From Clostridia bacterium (GTDB lineage Bacteria > Bacillota > Clostridia > Christensenellales > RUG350): a stretch of DNA of 50,392 nt. Under the pieces are notes generated by a model. The model was not told where the DNA came from and ran no database searches. It saw nothing but the letters and a program-made list of their open reading frames with translations. Position numbers and translations under genes: made by a program. Positions 543 through 41,525 of the stretch are shown here, piece after piece; within the stretch, counting starts at the first letter, position 1; each line of letters begins with the position of its first letter. Where the stretch lies: the NCBI GenBank assembly GCA_017631635.1, contig JAGBSX010000031.1:1-50392 (forward strand), read 5' to 3'.

Positions 543-890
543 ATCTATCTCTTTTCCTCAACTCGCCGACAGGCGAATATAACTTGTCGTCAGACAAATA
601 TAACTTGTCGCAGACAAATATAACTTGTCGTTAGACAAATATCACTTGCCCTTAGGCAAATACAACTTTGCACCAGCAAAATATAACTGCGTAGCAATAT
701 CACTTTGCGCTAGCAAAATATAACTGCGTAGCAATATCACTTTGCGCTAGCAAAATATAACTGCGTAGCAATATCACTTGCCGTTAGGCAAATATCACTT
801 TGCGCCAGCAAAATATAACTGCGTAGCAATATCACTTTGCGCCAGCAAAATATAACTGCGTAGCAATATCACTTGCCGATAGGCAAAATA
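543..890 (+). repeat. Tandem mini-hairpin array 1
   Basis: About 17 units in tandem. Each is a small hairpin (stem 3-5 bp, loop 3-4 bases), separated by a nearly constant linker of the form AATATMACT. Stem pairs vary but always match: TTGTC/GACAA, TTGCC/GGCAA, TTTGC/GCAAA, TGC/GCA and TCGCC/GGCGA. Loops are mostly of the form GNNA (GTTA, GTCA, GATA, GCTA, GCCA). The left boundary (AATCTATCTCTT, then CCTC and ACTCGCC) is shared with the array at 1608. The array lies between the queH terminator and the spacer upstream of the secreted-protein gene. Confidence 0.85.
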
Positions 891-920
891 AAAATCACGC
901 TGCCTTATAGTTAGCGTGAT
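885..920 (-). terminator. Rho-independent terminator after queH
   Basis: Read on the minus strand, ATCACGCT (920-913) pairs with AGCGTGAT (901-894), followed by a T-rich tract (TTTTTATTTT). It lies 24 bases beyond the queH stop. Confidence 0.75.
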
Positions 921-943
921 ATTCTACTATGTTCAAAGTTTCT

Positions 944-1543
944 CTATCTATCTCTAGTGTATAGGCATCCACAATAACTCTGCCTATATATACCCAACTC
1001 GTTTGACAGTTGCACAGATCTCTGATATCCACCCCTCTTCTTGAAGTCGGCATATAGCCACTCTACTCCGTAGTTCTGCGACAATTTCTCTCCTATGGAG
1101 TTGATGAGAGTAGGATTTTTGTGAGGAGATATACTCAATGTCGTAGCAAAATACTCATAGCCACCATCTCTAGCCACCTGAGCAGTCCTCTCTAGTCGCA
1201 TATCGTGGCAAACCACACATCTCGCTCCACCCTCTCTATCTTCGCTCATCTGCTCGGTGAGAGAGGAGTACCTATCCTCGTCATACTCTCCCTCGATATA
1301 TCCTATCCCCTCGTATCCCTCCATGGTGAGCAGTCTCCTCAACTCACTCGCTCGGCGCAAATACTCGTCCTCGGGTTGGATATTTGGGTTATAAAAGTAC
1401 ACCGTGATATCAAAATGTGGTCTCAATCTCTCTATGACGGCAGTCGCACAAGGAGCGCAACAGGCGTGCAAAAGTAGTCTAGGCTTGTGGTTTAGGCTAC
1501 CAACTTGGTCTATCATCAATTTGTCAAAATTAACGTCGTTCAT
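944..1543 (-). CDS. queH: Epoxyqueuosine reductase QueH
   Basis: Reduces epoxyqueuosine to queuosine in the wobble base of tRNAs; it is the non-cobalamin alternative to QueG. The 199-residue protein has the family's cysteine pattern: HACCAPC at residues 26-32, CVVC at 109-112 followed by HDMRLERT, the SISPHKN segment, and a C-terminal YCGC (Cys191 and Cys193). These cysteines and the conserved Asp are expected to hold the iron-sulfur cluster and adjacent metal. I place the start at the ATG at 1543 (MNDVNFDKL). The frame extends to a GTG at 1576, but those residues do not resemble the family. No strong ribosome binding site is visible at either start. The gene is followed by a terminator and flanked on both sides by mini-hairpin arrays. 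Confidence 0.93.
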   Translation of the reverse strand: MNDVNFDKLMIDQVGSLNHKPRLLLHACCAPCATAVIERLRPHFDITVYFYNPNIQPEDEYLRRASELRRLLTMEGYEGIGYIEGEYDEDRYSSLTEQMSEDREGGARCVVCHDMRLERTAQVARDGGYEYFATTLSISPHKNPTLINSIGEKLSQNYGVEWLYADFKKRGGYQRSVQLSNELGIYRQSYCGCLYTRDR

Positions 1544-1607
1544 AATATAATAACGTGTGCGCCTATGCGACACCACGCAGGTCGTCTTGGGGGGTTTTGG
1601 TTCGAGG

Positions 1608-1780
1608 AATCTATCTCTTCCCCTCCACTCGCCGACAGGCGAATATCACTTGCCGATAGGCAAATATCACTTTGCGCCAGCAAAATATAACTGCGTAGCA
1701 ATATCACTTGCCGATAGGCAAATATCACTTTGCGCCAGCAAAATATAACTTGTCGTTAGACAAATCTAACTGCCGTCAGG
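1608..1780 (+). repeat. Tandem mini-hairpin array 2
   Basis: About eight units of the same kind as at 543-890, with the same left boundary sequence and the same leading unit (TCGCC-GAC-AGGCGA). The units then read TTGCC-GATA-GGCAA, TTTGC-GCCA-GCAAA, TGC-GTA-GCA and so on. The right end runs directly into the stop codon of mscL, which is convergent with the array direction. The array lies between mscL and the start of queH. Confidence 0.85.
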
Positions 1781-2305
1781 CTACTCCTCGCTCTTGGGTG
1801 CATTTGTCTTTAGCAAATCTCTAATATCTCTGAGTATATCGTCGGTGGTCTCCACGACGGTAGGCTCTTGCACCTCTTCCACTTTCTCCTCGACTATCTC
1901 TTCTTCGCCGTCTGGATTAGTCAATTTGTCTATACCTTCTTTTGCCTTGAGAGCAATCTTCTCTAGTCTCTCCCTAAAGTATCTGACTATTCGTAGCGCT
2001 ACGAATATAGTCAACGCTATTATCAAAAAGTCAACTATCGCCTGCAAAAATAGTCCGTACTGCACGGCGTTCTCTGCCTTGACTAGCACTCCTGCCTCGT
2101 CATACACAGCCTCGGATAGTATCCACTTCCAGTCGGCGACGTTCGCCCCACCTGTCAATGCTCCTATGAGTGGCATTATTACGTTTTTGACTAGGGTGTT
2201 GGTGATGGCATTAAAAGCATTACCTATGACTACTGCTACTGCTAGGTCTAGGACGTTGCCTCTAGTGATAAAAGCCTTGAAATCTTCCCAAAATTTCTTA
2301 AACAT
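1781..2305 (-). CDS. mscL: Large-conductance mechanosensitive channel MscL
   Basis: A homopentameric membrane channel that opens under membrane tension to release solutes during osmotic downshock. The 174-residue protein begins with the family's amphipathic N-terminus (MFKKFWEDFKAFITRGN), then transmembrane helix 1 (VLDLAVAVVIGNAFNAI, about 18-40), a periplasmic loop, helix 2 (FLQAIVDFLIIALTIFVAL, about 85-105) and a charged cytoplasmic helix. The C-terminus is about 30-40 residues longer than in short homologues and very acidic (EEEIVEEKVEE). It lies 8 bases after the DUF4886 gene and is probably co-transcribed from the promoter at 3163-3191. Confidence 0.97.
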   Translation of the reverse strand: MFKKFWEDFKAFITRGNVLDLAVAVVIGNAFNAITNTLVKNVIMPLIGALTGGANVADWKWILSEAVYDEAGVLVKAENAVQYGLFLQAIVDFLIIALTIFVALRIVRYFRERLEKIALKAKEGIDKLTNPDGEEEIVEEKVEEVQEPTVVETTDDILRDIRDLLKTNAPKSEE

Positions 2306-3245: not shown

Positions 3246-5156
3246 ATGCTCATCAATCTCACCAACGTATCATACGGATATGACGACACCCTCGTATTTT
3301 ACGGCGTCAACGCCACCATCAACGAAGGGGATCGTATAGGCCTAGTCGGTATCAACGGCGCAGGCAAGACCACTCTCATCAACGTACTTCTCAAAAATCT
3401 GGAGTGCGTAGACGGTGATGTCTTTCACAAGTCAAATCTCCGTATAGGATACCTCGCCCAAAATAGTGGACTGGAGGGCGCGAACTCCGTGTACGAGGAG
3501 ATGAGCGAAGTGTACAGGGATATAGACGACCTCATATCTCGTATGCAAAAGACTGCCTGCGACATGGCTCTCTACCCTCACGATAGCCACGAATATCGCA
3601 AACTTTCTCACGATTACAATTCTCTATCTGCGCGCATAGACGCCGTGGACGGATACAACAAGGACGTGCGTATCAAGACTGTGCTAAATGGTATGGGCTT
3701 TACGGACAATTATCACCAAATCATATCTACTATGAGTGGTGGAGAGAAGACTAGACTCAAGATAGCCAAACTACTACTAGAGAGTCCAGATATACTCATA
3801 CTCGACGAACCTACCAATCACCTAGACTTTAGGACTCTAGCGTGGCTAGAGAGTTATCTATCTACCTACAAGGGGGCTCTACTCATAGTCTCTCACGATA
3901 GATACTTCCTCGACAAGACTGTGTCTAGGATATGGGAGATAGAGGACTGTACTTTCACTACCTACAAGGGTAATTATACCAAATACAGAGTGCTAAAGCG
4001 TGAGGCTACTACTACTCGTATGAGAGAGTATATTCGCCAAAGTGAGAAAATGCTCGCTATGAAGGCATTTGCCGAGAGAAATATACACCGTGCGTCCACC
4101 TCGGGTATGGCGAAGAGTAGGCTAAAACAACTAGAGCGTATAGAGCCTATCTCCAAACCTCGCACTTACCAAAAGCCACCTTCATTTTCATTTGAATATA
4201 CGGGAGATGAGCCAGAGAAATTTTCTCTCACTATCTCCAAACTCGACCTCTACGGTGGAGATAAAAAACTACTAAACCACGCCGACCTACAACTGCTCGC
4301 TCACGACAGAGTCGCCATACTAGGTCCAAACGGCGCAGGCAAATCTACACTACTACGCACGATACTAGATAGGGGCAATCCTCACGTCAAGTGGGGCAAG
4401 CACACTACCCTATCCTACTATGACCAAGAGAACCTCAACCTCAACTTTGACAACACCGTCATAGATGAACTATGGGGCAGATACCACCGAGAGACGCAGA
4501 CTTATATACGAAATATACTAGGTAGAGTAGGTCTCACGGAGGAGGATATCTACAAAAAGGTCTCTATGCTATCAGGTGGAGAGAGGGCTAGATTGGGACT
4601 AGCGATAATGATGGCTGATAGGGCAAACACTCTCGTACTAGACGAGCCGACCAACCACCTAGACTTACTGTCTATGGAGGCACTAGAGAGAGCGCTCGCC
4701 AAGTACAAAGGTACTGTGATATTCGTATCCCACGATAGATACTTCATCAACTCTGTAGCCACCAAGATAGTAGAGATAGAGGGGCAGACTCTCAATATAT
4801 TTGAGGGCAACTACGACGAATACCTAGATTACAAAAAGGCTCTCGCCGAAGAACAACTAAGAGAGCAAGAGCGAGCCAAAGCATCTGCTCCTATCACCAA
4901 GAAAGTTGCGCCCAAATCCCCCTCGCACAAGACCAAGGACGAGAGACGTGACGACGCCAAGCGACGTCAATATATATTTGACCTAGAGAACGAAATCAGC
5001 ACACTCGAAACACTAGAGAAGAGTCTGCTAGAGAGTATGTCCTCTCCAGAGGCTAGCCAAGATTATGAACTACTCAAAGACCTCTCTCAACAACTCGAGG
5101 ACACTCGCCACCGTATAGACGAACTCACCCTAGAGTGGGAGAGACTATCCGAATAA
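3246..5156 (+). CDS. ABC-F family ATPase (Uup/YdiF-like)
   Basis: A soluble tandem ATPase of the ribosome-associated ABC-F family; members act at the ribosomal E site in translation quality control or antibiotic protection. The 636 residues contain domain 1 with Walker A GINGAGKTT (35-43), signature MSGGEKTRL and Walker B LILDEPTNHLD. A charged linker follows, then domain 2 with GPNGAGKST, LSGGERARL and LVLDEPTNHLD. After a basic low-complexity stretch, a C-terminal coiled coil (about 570-636, YIFDLENEISTLETLEKSLLE) resembles that of Uup/YdiF. There are no membrane segments. It is monocistronic, ending at the composite repeat. Whether it is housekeeping or protective cannot be told from sequence alone. 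Confidence 0.92.
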   Translation: MLINLTNVSYGYDDTLVFYGVNATINEGDRIGLVGINGAGKTTLINVLLKNLECVDGDVFHKSNLRIGYLAQNSGLEGANSVYEEMSEVYRDIDDLISRMQKTACDMALYPHDSHEYRKLSHDYNSLSARIDAVDGYNKDVRIKTVLNGMGFTDNYHQIISTMSGGEKTRLKIAKLLLESPDILILDEPTNHLDFRTLAWLESYLSTYKGALLIVSHDRYFLDKTVSRIWEIEDCTFTTYKGNYTKYRVLKREATTTRMREYIRQSEKMLAMKAFAERNIHRASTSGMAKSRLKQLERIEPISKPRTYQKPPSFSFEYTGDEPEKFSLTISKLDLYGGDKKLLNHADLQLLAHDRVAILGPNGAGKSTLLRTILDRGNPHVKWGKHTTLSYYDQENLNLNFDNTVIDELWGRYHRETQTYIRNILGRVGLTEEDIYKKVSMLSGGERARLGLAIMMADRANTLVLDEPTNHLDLLSMEALERALAKYKGTVIFVSHDRYFINSVATKIVEIEGQTLNIFEGNYDEYLDYKKALAEEQLREQERAKASAPITKKVAPKSPSHKTKDERRDDAKRRQYIFDLENEISTLETLEKSLLESMSSPEASQDYELLKDLSQQLEDTRHRIDELTLEWERLSE

Positions 5157-5197
5157 CGCATCATCATACGACCAATCAAAAAAGCGACGATATTAGT

Positions 5198-5513
5198 GCG
5201 TCAGTAATAGGGATTATTGCTGACGCGCTAGTTATATTTGCCTATCGGCAAGTTATATTGCTAAAGCAGTTATATTTTGCTACGCAAAGTTATATTTACC
5301 CACAGGGTAAGTTGTGGCAAATATAATATAACTTTTTCGAGAGAAATATAAGAACCTGCTAAAGCAGAACCTTGAATTTTTCTCTCGAAAAATATCACGC
5401 AAGATACTTGCATATCACTTTTAGCCATAGGGCTAAAAATATCACTTAAATCTTTAATTTTTGTGGATAAGAAAAGCACACTACGTTTCACTTTTAGTGA
5501 AGTATAGTGTGCT
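5198..5513. repeat. Composite repeat element, copy A
   Basis: Fills the gap between two convergent genes. Parts in order: a hairpin GCGTCAG...CTGACGC (5198-5226); reverse-orientation mini-hairpin units with AGTTATATT linkers (stems TTGCC/GGCAA, TGC/GCA, TTTGC/GCAAA, TTACCC/GGGTAA); a core beginning GTTGTGGCAAATATAATA; a 14-bp inverted repeat TTTTTCGAGAGAAA with its complement; forward linkers around hairpin TTTTAGCC-ATAG-GGCTAAAA (5419-5438); TGTGGATAA (5462-5470, a perfect DnaA-box sequence); and a terminal hairpin at 5475-5513 (AGCACACTA...TAGTGTGCT). The same parts in the same order recur at 29193-29528. From 5514 to 5605 I see nothing further. Its two ends could serve as terminators for the convergent genes. 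Confidence 0.8.
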
Positions 5514-5605
5514 ATAATTTATTATGGACTAAAAATCCCTATGGAACTCGGCTTCTCGTCGCTTTTATCGTGATTTTATTGTCAATCAATGATAGTCAAC
5601 CTCTC

Positions 5606-26280: not shown

Positions 26281-26402
26281 GTTTTTATCCATATTTTTAC
26301 CTAGATTGTGGACAAAATAAACAATTTTTTCTTCTGTTTTTCTTTTTTTGGTGTAAAATTAAAAATAAAATTTTATTTTATCCACACTCTAAAGTTTTTT
26401 TC
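26281..26402. other. oriC: Putative replication origin upstream of dnaA
   Basis: In the AT-rich gap between cvpA and dnaA there is one perfect DnaA box (TTATCCACA, 26378-26386). Two one-mismatch boxes lie at 26285-26293 (TTATCCATA) and on the minus strand at 26315-26307 (TTGTCCACA). Between them is an A/T-only tract (about 26355-26380) that could unwind. Gene direction switches here: minus to the left, plus for all genes to the right end. More box-like sequences lie between dnaA and dnaN. Placement is by these signs only; GC skew was not computed. Confidence 0.7.
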
Positions 26403-26431
26403 TTGTGTTTTTTTTAAATTAGTTGTATAAT
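26403..26431 (+). promoter_or_regulatory. dnaA promoter
   Basis: TTGTGT (26403-26408), 17 bases, TATAAT (26426-26431), about 60 bases before the chosen dnaA start. Confidence 0.7.
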
Positions 26432-26490
26432 GTATCTAGCATATTATTTTGGTAATTATGCATTTTTTTGGGGAGAGTGCTATAGTACTT

Positions 26491-27852
26491 ATGATAAATA
26501 TTGATAACATATGGAATTTGGCCAAAAGCAAACTCAGTATAACTATGCCTAGCGTAGGTGCTTTTGACGTGTGGATTCAGAGTCTAGAGCCTGTGTGTAT
26601 CACGGATGGCAAACTAGTACTCGCCGCCCCTACCAAAATGGCCAAAGACCTAATCAATCGTAATTACAAAGAAATCATAGACCAAGCCGTATCTGAGACA
26701 CAACTCACTATACGCGGTACTGTGATAGTATTAGAAAGCGAGATAGAGTCATACGTATCAAATAGCGAGGTTATACTAGACGACCAACCTGTCGTCAAGA
26801 TGCCCAAAGAAGACGCTCCTATCTTCACTTCAAAATACACTTTTGAAAATTTTGTCGTGGGAGATAGCAACCGTTTTGCAGTAGCGGCAGCACACGCCGT
26901 CGCAGAGAATCCTGGCAAGAAAAATCCTCTATTTTTATGGGGAGGAGTAGGTCTAGGCAAGACTCACCTTATGCACGCTATAGGCAACTATATCCGTACG
27001 TATTCTCCAAATCTCCGTATACAATACGTGACTACTGCCGAATTCACCAACGAACTAGTAGATTCTATTCAAAAGAGTAAAAATAATCGTGACGTCAACG
27101 GTGCTTTTAGAGAAAAGTACTACAACTGTGACGTGCTTATGATAGACGACGTTCAATTTTTGGCAAATCGTAGTGGTACTCAAGAGGCTGTATTTAATCT
27201 ATTTAATTCATTATATATCAATGGCAAGCAGATTATACTATCATCTGACCGTCACCCAAAGGAAATAGAGACTCTCACAGAGAGATTAGAATCTAGATTT
27301 TTGAGTGGTATCACGGCAGACATTAGAGAACCAAATATAGAGACTCGTATCGCTATACTTCGTAGTAAGTGTCAAGAAGAAAATTATAACGTAGAAGACG
27401 AAGTACTTCACTATATAGCATCACTTTGTTCTTCAAACGTGAGAGAATTAGAAGGATTACTCTCAAAAGTAGCCCTATATGCCGACCTGATGGGTATCAG
27501 GATAGTAGATATGGAACTAGCATCCGAGGCGCTAGGAGACTACACTTATAAAGATAAGGAAATAATAGATATAGACCGTATCATAGATACCACTTGCGAA
27601 TATTTCAAAATTTCTCGTAAAGATATCGAAGGTCCTAAGAGAAATAGAGAATTTGCCTATCCTCGTATGATATGCGTATATATCATAAATAACCTACTAT
27701 CTATTCCTCTCAAGGTAATAGGAGAGGCTTTGGGTGGTAGAGATTATACCACTATCATACACTCTAGAGACAAAATTTCTCAACTAATGCAAAAAAATGA
27801 AAGTATTAAAAAGAGTGTTAATGATATCAAAAATATTTTGCTCGGCAAATAA
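26491..27852 (+). CDS. dnaA: Chromosomal replication initiator protein DnaA
   Basis: Binds DnaA boxes and opens the origin. The 453 residues contain domain I (MINIDNIWNLAKSKLSITMPSVGAFDVWIQSLEP), a short linker, and the AAA+ domain with Walker A LWGGVGLGKTH, Walker B VLMIDDVQFLANR and SSDRHPKEI. Domain IV carries the DNA-binding signature GEALGGRDYTTIIHSRDKI. The usual sequence there is GGRDHTT; the His that contacts the box is Tyr here. I choose the ATG at 26491 by similarity of the first residues to other DnaA proteins. In-frame starts also exist at 26449 and 26458, and the ribosome binding site (GGGGAGAG) is rather far upstream. dnaN follows. Confidence 0.97.
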   Translation: MINIDNIWNLAKSKLSITMPSVGAFDVWIQSLEPVCITDGKLVLAAPTKMAKDLINRNYKEIIDQAVSETQLTIRGTVIVLESEIESYVSNSEVILDDQPVVKMPKEDAPIFTSKYTFENFVVGDSNRFAVAAAHAVAENPGKKNPLFLWGGVGLGKTHLMHAIGNYIRTYSPNLRIQYVTTAEFTNELVDSIQKSKNNRDVNGAFREKYYNCDVLMIDDVQFLANRSGTQEAVFNLFNSLYINGKQIILSSDRHPKEIETLTERLESRFLSGITADIREPNIETRIAILRSKCQEENYNVEDEVLHYIASLCSSNVRELEGLLSKVALYADLMGIRIVDMELASEALGDYTYKDKEIIDIDRIIDTTCEYFKISRKDIEGPKRNREFAYPRMICVYIINNLLSIPLKVIGEALGGRDYTTIIHSRDKISQLMQKNESIKKSVNDIKNILLGK

Positions 27853-28049
27853 TTAGGATAAGTTGATTTTATCAATATATATTCTATCTTTATCCTATTA
27901 GTTATTATACTTTTAAAATCAATCCTTTGGGTTTATCTTGGATATAAATACTATATATAGTGGTGTTTTGTACTTATCAACATATCCACATTACTTATTA
28001 TTATTGTTATTTTCTAATTAAAGATTTATATATTATTAGGAGGCTAAAT
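27853..28049 (+). promoter_or_regulatory. dnaA-dnaN spacer with DnaA-box-like sites
   Basis: AT-rich spacer. It holds adjacent one-mismatch DnaA boxes TTATCAACA (27974-27982) and ATATCCACA (27982-27990), and a palindrome ACTATATATAGTGG (27950-27963) that recurs upstream of rpmG. It ends with a strong AGGAGG ribosome binding site for dnaN. Confidence 0.5.
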
Positions 28050-29156
28050 ATGAAATTATATTGTTCAGGGTTGGAGTTGAGTGAAGCAGTACTTCGCGTT
28101 AGTAAGGCTATGCCTATTAAGAAGACTATGTCTATACTTGAAGGTATCAAATTGTCTGCTATAGGATCTACTCTCACTATCACAGCCACCGACCTAGAAT
28201 TGGCTATAGAAAGAAAAATAAGAGCAGATATAAAACTAGAAGGAGAGGCAGTAGTACCAGGTAAATTTTTCTGTGAATTTATCAAAAAACTATCTAACGA
28301 AGAAATAGAAATATCTACTCACGACAACAAAATGTCTATCAAGTATGGAGATAGTGTAGGAGAACTACAATGTCTCAATCTAGACGAATTTCCTCCTATT
28401 AGAAAGGTAGAAGAGGATACTTTCTTCACTATATCTCAACGTAAGTTTATGAAACTCATAGACCGTACTATTTTTTCTGTATCAAATGAAGATTTGAGAC
28501 CTATTTTGAAGGGATGTCTAATAGAGATAGATAGTAATCTACACAACGTCAGAGCAGTAGCCCTAGACGGATTTAGACTAGCAGTATGTGAAGAAGAGAT
28601 ATTATCTACCGGTAAAGATATATCCGTGATAATACCTGCTAGATCTTTGGCAGAGATATCCAAGATAATAGAAGATGAAGATATACCATGTACGTTGTAT
28701 ATACAAAACAACTACGTAATGCTAGATTTGGATCACACAAAGATAACCTCAAGATTGATAGAAGGTGACTTTATACAATACAAAAAAATAATACCTAGAG
28801 AATTTAATACTTTAATCACAGTCAACAAATCTCAAATGGAGACAGGACTAGAGAGAGCATCATTAGTATCAAGAGGAGATAAGAACAATCTCATCAAACT
28901 AGATATAAAAGAAAAGAATATGTCTATCACTAGTAATAGCGAACTAGGTAATATAAATGAAAACGTAGTAATATCTCTAAATGGAAAAGATATAAGTATA
29001 GCATTTAACGTAAAATACTTCACAGAAGCATTTAGAGTGATAGAAGATGAATTTATACAACTAAATATGTCCTCTTCGACTGCTCCTTGTATAATAAAAC
29101 CAATGGAGGGAGAAAAATATCTATATATGATACTCCCAGTTAAAATGCTCGGCTAA
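28050..29156 (+). CDS. dnaN: DNA polymerase III beta subunit (sliding clamp)
   Basis: The ring-shaped clamp that tethers the polymerase to DNA. The 368-residue protein starts MKLYCSGLELSEAVLRVSKAMPIKKT and has the three-domain clamp pattern: GKFFCEFIKKLSNEEIEI; LDGFRLAV; and ending APCIIKPMEGEKYLYMILPVKM. The ATG at 28050 has AGGAGG eight bases upstream; the open frame extends to 27960 through the spacer. Codon use is more A/T-rich than in most of the window. It is not followed by recF, gyrB or gyrA but by a repeat element and the gene desert. Confidence 0.97.
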   Translation: MKLYCSGLELSEAVLRVSKAMPIKKTMSILEGIKLSAIGSTLTITATDLELAIERKIRADIKLEGEAVVPGKFFCEFIKKLSNEEIEISTHDNKMSIKYGDSVGELQCLNLDEFPPIRKVEEDTFFTISQRKFMKLIDRTIFSVSNEDLRPILKGCLIEIDSNLHNVRAVALDGFRLAVCEEEILSTGKDISVIIPARSLAEISKIIEDEDIPCTLYIQNNYVMLDLDHTKITSRLIEGDFIQYKKIIPREFNTLITVNKSQMETGLERASLVSRGDKNNLIKLDIKEKNMSITSNSELGNINENVVISLNGKDISIAFNVKYFTEAFRVIEDEFIQLNMSSSTAPCIIKPMEGEKYLYMILPVKMLG

Positions 29157-29192
29157 TAAAAATTAAACTAAAAAATAAACATACCTGCAAAA

Positions 29193-29528
29193 GCCGAGTC
29201 CCTACTAGGGATTCGGCAACTAAATAAATCCTTACGGATTTGTGATATTCGCCTGACGGCAAGTGATATTACCTATCGGCAGTTATATTTGCCTACGGCA
29301 AGTTATATTGCTTACGCAGTTATATTTTGCTAACGCAAAGTTTTATTTTCCCTTTCGTGAAAGTTGTGGCAAATATAATATAACTGCGACTGCAAGTCGC
29401 AATCTAACGCAAAACTTATGTGCATATCACTTTTAGCCACAAGGCTAAAAATAAAACTAAATAATTTTAATCTTTTATGGATAATAAAAGCCCACTATAC
29501 TTCGCTTTAAGGCGAAATATGGTGGGCT
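29193..29528. repeat. Composite repeat element, copy B
   Basis: The second copy of the element at 5198-5513. It holds hairpin GCCGAGTCCC...GGGATTCGGC (29193-29217), hairpin AAATCC-TTAC-GGATTT (29226-29241), and reverse-orientation mini-hairpins (GCC/GGC, TTGCC/GGCAA, TGC/GCA, TTTGC/GCAAA). The shared core beginning GTTGTGGCAAATATAATA follows, then hairpin TGCGACT-GCA-AGTCGCA and hairpin TTTTAGCC-ACAA-GGCTAAAA (29431-29450). Next is TATGGATAA (29476-29484, a one-mismatch DnaA box) and the terminal hairpin AGCCCACTAT...ATGGTGGGCT (29489-29528). It lies just after dnaN and may help terminate its transcript. Confidence 0.8.
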
Positions 29529-29625
29529 ATATTTTTATATTAAATTAAAAATCACTTATAAGATATCCATAAAATAGGTATGTTTTTTTATTATCATAAT
29601 ATAAAAAAAGTAAGATAAGAAAAAG

Positions 29626-29655
29626 TTATTAAATATATATATATATATTTAATAA
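29626..29655. repeat. Perfect 30-bp AT palindrome
   Basis: The half-site TTATTAAATATATAT is followed directly by its exact reverse complement. It contains only A and T and could extrude as a cruciform or act as an unwinding element. Confidence 0.85.
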
Positions 29656-30003
29656 AATAAAGATAAACAAACGTTATAAAAAAATACAGCAAAACAGGGT
29701 GGAGTAAGAAAAAATAAAAAAAACGTATAAAAAGAAAAAATATAGAAAAAAAAATAAATTTTCTATGCGCCACCATATATTTATAATAAAATTATACAAA
29801 AATATCAGCACTCTCAAAATTAAAACGCAAAAAATATAATATATCATAGTGCATAATTATAATAGTTTCACAAAAACAGTAAAAAACGGCTCAAAAAAAT
29901 TTAGGAGAAAGAAAATATACTTTCTTAACAATCTATAAAAATAAATAAAAAATTATAAAAATATATATGCACCTATATAAAAATTAGTAAAAATACGCAA
30001 AAA

Positions 30004-30050
30004 AGTTTCACGTAGAACAATTTTTAGATTAAAAAGTTTTTCGTGGAACA
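30004..30050. promoter_or_regulatory. Pair of parS-like 16-mers
   Basis: AGTTTCACGTAGAACA (30004-30019) and AGTTTTTCGTGGAACA (30035-30050) match the parS consensus TGTTTCACGTGAAACA at 13 and 12 of 16 positions by eye. They start 31 bases apart, about three helical turns. No parA or parB gene is in the window. Confidence 0.45.
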
Positions 30051-30750
30051 TATAATTTTAGGTGTCTTTATAAAATATTAAAAAAATAGTATTATAGTAG
30101 TAGTGCAAAGGATAAAAATAAATAAAACTATTCTCTAATTGAAAATGTAAAAAAAAAGAATATTAAAGAAATAAAAAAATACAACGTAATAAAAAAAATG
30201 AAAGCAAAGAGTGTACTTTTTTAATATAATGCTAAAAATAAATAATATCACTAGTCGCAGTATAAATAATATTGCACTTATTATTATATAAAAAACAAAA
30301 CGTAAAAGTGTAATTTTTAGCCAAGCATCAGGTATGAACGAAGATAAGAGCCTTTTAATATAGTGAGGATACTAAAAATGTAAGAAATAAATAAAAATAA
30401 AAAATCAAAGCGAGAAGATAGATAAAAAAAAGATAGGTGATAAATAAAAGAAGATTGTGAAGTGTTAAAATAAAAAACAATCTATCTCCTTAGTTGGTTG
30501 ACAAAAAGAGGGATAGAGAGTAATATATAATGGTTGGTATAAATATATATTTATAAATCGTATTATATAAAATCCAAAAAATTAAAAGTAGTACCCTATT
30601 AAGTAATAAAAAAGAAGCAGTAGTACAAAAAGAAAAGTAAATTGTAAAAAAATAAAAACATAAGTTTTTAATAAACAAAGTTATAGAATTAAACTACTTT
30701 GATTAAAAATTAAAAAAACGTGCCTAGTAGCAGATAAAAAAAGAGGTAAG

Positions 30751-41362: not shown

Positions 41363-41525
41363 ACTAAAAAACTAAATCGTACCCAAGACCACAAGGGGCT
41401 ATTCTTAAAAATCTTGTGCAGGTATAGAGCAATACAATCGTAGTATTTTGCCTCCGTACTTGTCAAGTGCGGAGGTTTTTTTGTGGCGAGGGTATACCCA
41501 AATCTATAAAGGAGGTTTGAGAAAA
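41363..41525 (+). promoter_or_regulatory. L10 leader with attenuator hairpin
   Basis: This leader ends in a perfect 11-bp hairpin (CCTCCGTACTT, loop GTC, AAGTGCGGAGG, 41451-41475) with a T-tail (41476-41482), 43 bases before rplJ. This is the position and form of the ribosomal-protein L10 leader attenuator, which is controlled by the L10(L12)4 complex. An upstream helix with AAGACCACAAG and CTTGTGCAGGT could be the antiterminator or L10 site. Confidence 0.75.

Follow-up and report, generated by a model that had tools for sequence, protein, structure and literature searches.

Gut-1 was reported in 2010 as an ncRNA candidate, rated as a likely RNA without cis-regulation and listed as 'Human gut only' (Weinberg et al., 2010; PMC2864571). 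In Rfam, the Gut-1 model (RF01706) is a fixed, ncRNA-like RNA of three hairpins from the human gut only. Another type of dispersed hairpin is represented by the REP and BIME elements associated with RAYT (Y1) transposases. These are short dispersed intergenic palindromes located behind genes or between convergent genes, often as inverted pairs, and their stems are conserved. The double-hairpin elements of fungal and sponge mitochondria, which are not bacterial, are mobile-looking hairpins with compensatory changes, and to our knowledge they do not form arrays with constant linkers. At the chemical level, DNA mini-hairpins with a GNA or GNNA loop and a closing G-C pair are extraordinarily stable and resist nucleases (PMC4686876). 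The stable mini-hairpins d(GCGNAGC) of Hirao and Yoshizawa are, however, a chemical motif and not a genetic element, and none of the papers found describes natural arrays of them.

The window is the whole stretch of 50,392 nucleotides analysed here (contig JAGBSX010000031.1 of a Clostridia bacterium). Arrays A and B are located on the two sides of queH (944–1576, minus strand; Pfam QueH). Array A (563–886, plus strand) consists of 17 mini-hairpins with ATATMAC linkers between them, and its C-GN(N)A-G loops are on the plus strand. Array B (1629–1781, plus strand) consists of 8 mini-hairpins and abuts the mscL stop codon (1781–1783, minus strand). The two arrays have a common boundary, ATCTATCTCTT.CCCTC.ACTCGCCGACAGGCGAATAT, at 543–562 beside array A (D side) and at 1609–1628 at array B, both on the plus strand; the arrangement around queH with a shared boundary, described in the initial annotation, was thereby confirmed. 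On the plus strand, each unit of A and B is ordered as linker ATATMAC, stem, loop and stem, with rare linker variants ATACAAC and ATCTAAC. The linker had been given as AATATMACT. Its constancy was reproduced, but its extent was not, as AATATMACT takes in one stem base per side. The stems are of six types (TCGCC, TTGTC, TTGCC, TTTGC, TGC and TGCC), all complementary as previously claimed, and 23 of the 25 hairpins have a GNA or GNNA loop with a C-G closing pair, in agreement with the mostly GNNA loops noted before. Fixed-copy units are frequent inside the window, where a 37-bp TTTGC-TGC dimer is repeated. The stem variety is compelling only in the comparison across genomes.

Two more arrays, C and D, go beyond those listed in the initial annotation. 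Array C is an inverted pair, with the left half (5231–5311, minus strand) located 3' of an ABC-F gene (3246–5156) and the right half at 5378–5458 (plus strand). Array D (29243–29340, minus strand) is directly 3' of dnaN and has a Gut-1 match at 29217–29313 (plus strand). In the interval from queH to array A, a hairpin resembling a terminator of this gene (890–926, minus strand; ATCACGCT...AGCGTGAT then TTTTTATTTT) was read from the sequence; it was not detected by the consensus terminator scan. An array of intrinsic terminators does not fit, as the sequence after each hairpin is ATATMAC, GTTATAT or GTGATAT and not a T-run, and the terminator scan gave one weak match among the 25 window hairpins. 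Long perfect hairpins without T-runs, conserved across species, are often located directly before arrays (e.g. TGCGTCAGTAATA...TTATTGCTGACGC), as at 5190–5225 and 5480–5515 of the window and on the U sides of the arrays in the genus labelled g64. Spurious ORFs of 61–68 residues arise from arrays (417–623 and 1505–1748; e.g. ...ADRQISLCASKI), and automatic annotation may call them genes. An ordinary ribosomal protein L10 leader (RF00557) is present at 41364–41490 (plus strand).

The initial annotation stated that no named element of this type is known. This statement does not stand, because the arrays match the Gut-1 covariance model on the minus strand with 57.8 bits at 1696–1772 and 50.1 bits at 692–763, the gathering cut-off being 50 bits. 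Weaker matches tile the remainder of the two arrays, so that the minus-strand matches lie at 572–647, 692–763, 766–821 and 824–896 over array A and at 1617–1693 and 1696–1772 over array B. The arrays share with Gut-1 both the linkers and the serial arrangement of hairpins. In contrast to the fixed three-hairpin model, the Gut-1 match here is a unit of arrays of 3–17 hairpins, which occur in 41 of 125 genera of the order, and the structure signals are found on the complementary strand. Rfam therefore already contains the arrays under the name Gut-1, although it treats them as an RNA from the opposite strand. A full-text literature search found no paper on these hairpin arrays. Our best explanation, to which we assign a probability of about 0.5, is that Gut-1 is a dispersed chromosomal element of single-strand DNA hairpins and not a sense RNA.

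Such runs, for which a search of the own and related genomes had been suggested, were found in both. The genome of the window (G000; 1.32 Mb in 59 contigs) has 58 Gut-1 matches, 18 of them over the cut-off. Many of its contigs start or end within an array (C2, C5, C18, C24, C30, C51, C53 and C54), and thus the copy number is probably underestimated. Within the host order, matches were detected in 75 of 297 genomes (41/125 genera). A pattern scan of named genomes gave more than 100 contigs among the matches listed, from uncultured Clostridia and Firmicutes MAGs, and these are mostly from animal gut where a source is given. No viral contig and no plasmid with arrays was found in the viral and plasmid records, apart from one weak 70-nt phage match, and a phage or plasmid origin was rejected. 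In g64 (41 genomes), four genomes have 46–55 copies, three have 1–14 and the others have none. The linker in this genus is mostly ATTTCAY, and 73 of its 123 arrays (at least three hairpins) have 4 hairpins, the rest having 3 or 5. A second subfamily, with the linker ATGATAT and tandem TTTTGC/GTTGC hairpins, is present at loci L300 (G329:C1, about 704682), L332 (G316) and L341 (G329), where relatives hold the ATTTCAC type or none. Another abundant dispersed repeat of g64, GGAGATCCTTCGACTGCGCT...GCTCAGGATGACA, interrupts or adjoins arrays (L299, L204 and L212).

In linker-defined segments taken over all loci, the outer three pairs are Watson–Crick in 80.8%, vs 35.0% with the arms shuffled (s.d. 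0.8%). According to the alignment of 100 distinct 17-nt hairpins of g64, 99.1% of the cells are paired and double changes are present at 7 of 7 pairs, whereas no column is invariant. The covariation score of these stems is 0.776, vs 0.193 after shuffling (0/500) and no more than 0.146 after sliding. The same features were followed at individual copies by 18 comparisons of orthologous arrays among three close g64 genomes. Linkers differ at 1 of 483 letters (0.2%; p = 2e-7 vs flank), and one-sided stem differences, which leave a base unpaired, amount to 2 of 1091 (0.2%; p = 3e-15), against 210 of 5221 letters (4.0%) in the flanks, a yardstick that includes gene ends and is not purely neutral. 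Loops differ at 13 of 246 letters (5.3%; p = 0.32 vs flank); their middle letters drift, whereas the outer letters are mostly kept. Linkers and pairing are thus about 20 times more constrained than the flanks, and the loops are as free as the flanks. Six further stem-letter differences form three compensated pairs, such as AAGTGTC..GACACTT vs ATGTGTC..GACACAT and ATTCGTC..GACGAAT vs ATTTGAC..GTCAAAT. Given this rarity of linker and one-sided stem changes, the pairing and the linker must be maintained copy by copy, whether by selection or by a process of equivalent effect. The initial annotation had proposed that the structure is selected or generated with compensated stem changes, and would have given this up if stems mutated without compensation or if units were simply fixed blocks. 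The orthologue comparisons and the 100-stem covariation support the proposal. The two conditions mostly fail: uncompensated change is rare as described above, and units are not exclusively fixed blocks, though block copying occurs (37-bp dimers; 53 of 170 units recur in genome G283). The arrays also turn over: at one intergenic site, the four hairpins in G283 are unrelated to those in G316, G329 and G096, and eight relatives have none.

The strand that folds is indicated by the loops. Among 456 distinct short hairpins (stems of 3–7 bp, loops of 3–4 nt), C-GN(N)A-G loops were counted 276 times on the strand of the ATWTMAY linker and 3 times on the complement. Control hairpins from the same loci have the loop motif in 12% in either orientation, vs 54% for array hairpins matched in stem length. 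The loop rule applies to about 63% of hairpins with stems of up to 5 bp and to 18% of those with stems of at least 8 bp, as expected if the loop must stabilize a short stem. GNYA loops (68) outnumber GNRA loops (54), and therefore the rule is not that of the RNA GNRA tetraloop. Single mismatches on the C-GNNA-G strand are G.T in 28 cases and A.C in 8 (25 vs 8 when clustered, p = 0.005), with the same direction in each group; this excess would mean that wobble is tolerated on the C-GNNA-G strand and not on the Gut-1 strand, although the counts are small and mutation bias could produce them. As the ViennaRNA tables for RNA and DNA lack a bonus for GNA and GNNA, the energy comparison of the strands gives no independent support. 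The arrays have the same loops and the same C-G closing pair as the mini-hairpins of Hirao and Yoshizawa. The loops, the wobble and the stability of such mini-hairpins favour folding of the C-GNNA-G strand, with DNA as the simplest reading and an antisense RNA of this strand as a possible one.

Orientation was related to replication in g64, where GC skew defined the arms of three complete chromosomes and the rRNA operons run with these arms. Because dnaA of g64 lies away from the skew switch, the origin rests on skew and rRNA direction. Read in the Gut-1 sense, the arrays follow the leading strand in 106 out of 123 cases (p = 7e-17), in 40 of 45 in G283 alone, and in 44 of 47 between convergent or divergent genes, which impose no direction. 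Therefore, the C-GNNA-G strand serves as template for the leading strand and is equal to the nascent lagging strand. The replication bias was demonstrated only in g64. For other genera, local skew gave no agreement (52/112; 33/71 for single arrays), where local skew (6–20 kb) is a poor proxy of replication and many arrays are symmetric pairs. Loop, wobble and replication orientation together point to the strand opposite to that of Gut-1 in Rfam. Arrays A, B and D of the window are consistent with the leading-strand rule. The window also includes the chromosome origin region (26378–30750), with dnaA (26449–27852), dnaN (27960–29156) and a perfect DnaA box at 26378, where GC skew switches from minus to plus at dnaA/dnaN; array D is right behind dnaN. 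Perfect or near-perfect DnaA boxes (TTATCCACA) are found at the edges of several arrays, at 5462 (minus strand) of the window and at L175 near 1258–1530 and 6952.

The arrays are intergenic. Most of them lie just after a stop codon or, when they form inverted pairs, in the space between convergent genes. In g64, the upstream gene is on the same strand for 84 arrays, and 79 of these lie between −40 and +75 nt relative to the stop codon of that gene (median 12), whereas the gene at the opposite end is at a median distance of 151 nt. Some linkers (AGTGAAAT) even provide the stop codon TGA. All 24 inverted pairs are convergent in the Gut-1 sense, mostly between convergent genes. This placement is explained if Gut-1 is what it is annotated to be, a sense RNA (a 3' UTR element or ncRNA) whose tandem hairpins present GUGAAAU or GUGAUAU linkers to an RNA-binding protein or protect mRNA 3' ends. 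The RF01706 match is on the gene-sense strand, the likely-RNA rating of Weinberg et al. (2010) agrees with such a function, and the structural constraint at each copy fits RNA as well. However, the loop G..A and the wobble asymmetry lie on the other strand, and the upstream gene is on the opposite strand in 38 of 122 arrays. Where gene direction and replication disagree, in lagging-strand gene pairs of g64, the arrays side with replication in 12 of 16. Array A, moreover, is beyond the terminator-like hairpin of queH. A sense RNA is therefore considered unlikely. Among the three options of the initial annotation, a DNA-structure target agrees best with these observations and a sense-RNA domain agrees least.

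The third option, hairpin-templated expansion, is insufficient alone because it leaves the conserved linkers and loop G..A unexplained. As a neutral process, the nascent strand would fold, one arm would be copied onto the other (quasipalindrome correction), and slippage would add units. Double changes without intermediates in orthologues, the identical 37-bp dimers in the window and the identity of the stable-hairpin strand with the nascent lagging strand all agree with it, but the linker conservation (1/483), the loop G..A with a drifting middle and the g64 arrays of 3–5 hairpins, most often 4, do not, and we regard it as very improbable. Spread without benefit to the host is also improbable. 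The arrays would then be a mobile repeat like REP/BIME or MITE, spread by an enzyme acting on single-stranded hairpins, and the conservation would reflect recent spread and conversion between copies. Consistent with it, four of the 41 g64 genomes carry about 50 copies and the others fewer or none, orthologous sites have the array, a different array or nothing, whole units are gained and lost, and some units are common to several arrays. IS608 is a single-strand transposon with replication-oriented insertion, so that the orientation of the arrays would also fit. On the other hand, no target-site duplication was seen, and orthologous copies with diverged flanks retain linkers and pairing, which dead copies should not. 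Y1 transposase (PF01797) is absent from seven array-bearing genomes (G000, G265, G013, G135, G264, G057 and G278) and reverse transcriptase (PF00078) from eight (G000, G283, G096, G316, G329, G135, G057 and G278). Thus, neither enzyme is required for the arrays, and spread driven by RAYT/Y1 or by retroelements (group II intron, DGR or retron) was ruled out. REPs are also different in that they conserve the stem; here 100 distinct 17-nt stems were found with constant linkers, and the genome of the window has no Y1 transposase.

The single-strand DNA element that we prefer starts from structure, linker, strand, placement and, in one genus, orientation, all demonstrated above. Its working unit would be a constant 7-nt linker (ATWTMAY) and a mini-hairpin with a C-GNA-G or C-GNNA-G loop on one DNA strand. 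This strand would fold whenever it is single-stranded, be it at the replication fork or where the DNA is unwound, and a putative protein of the host or of the element may recognize the linkers exposed between stable hairpins. The units would spread as blocks, and new stems would arise through compensated changes or through copying templated by the hairpin. Fork-coupled insertion may account for the orientation bias, or else the deletion of those copies in which the more stable strand is the template of the lagging strand. The arrays would presumably benefit the host and be kept by selection at individual copies. We tentatively extend this reading, with rather low confidence, to a genome-wide, replication-oriented structural code of single-stranded DNA, in which the putative protein would read 7-nt linkers between mini-hairpins that are free to vary, on the nascent lagging strand (leading-strand template), and so mark gene ends or the passage of the fork.

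A fixed linker with a free stem is the reverse of ordinary dispersed palindromes. The strand signals suggest that the Gut-1 candidate RNA was put on the wrong strand, and perhaps assigned to the wrong molecule. If the structural code is real, a family filed as ncRNA would be a DNA element. If the hairpins act as single-stranded DNA, the arrays would be a natural and abundant system for DNA folding at the fork and for compensatory evolution without RNA.
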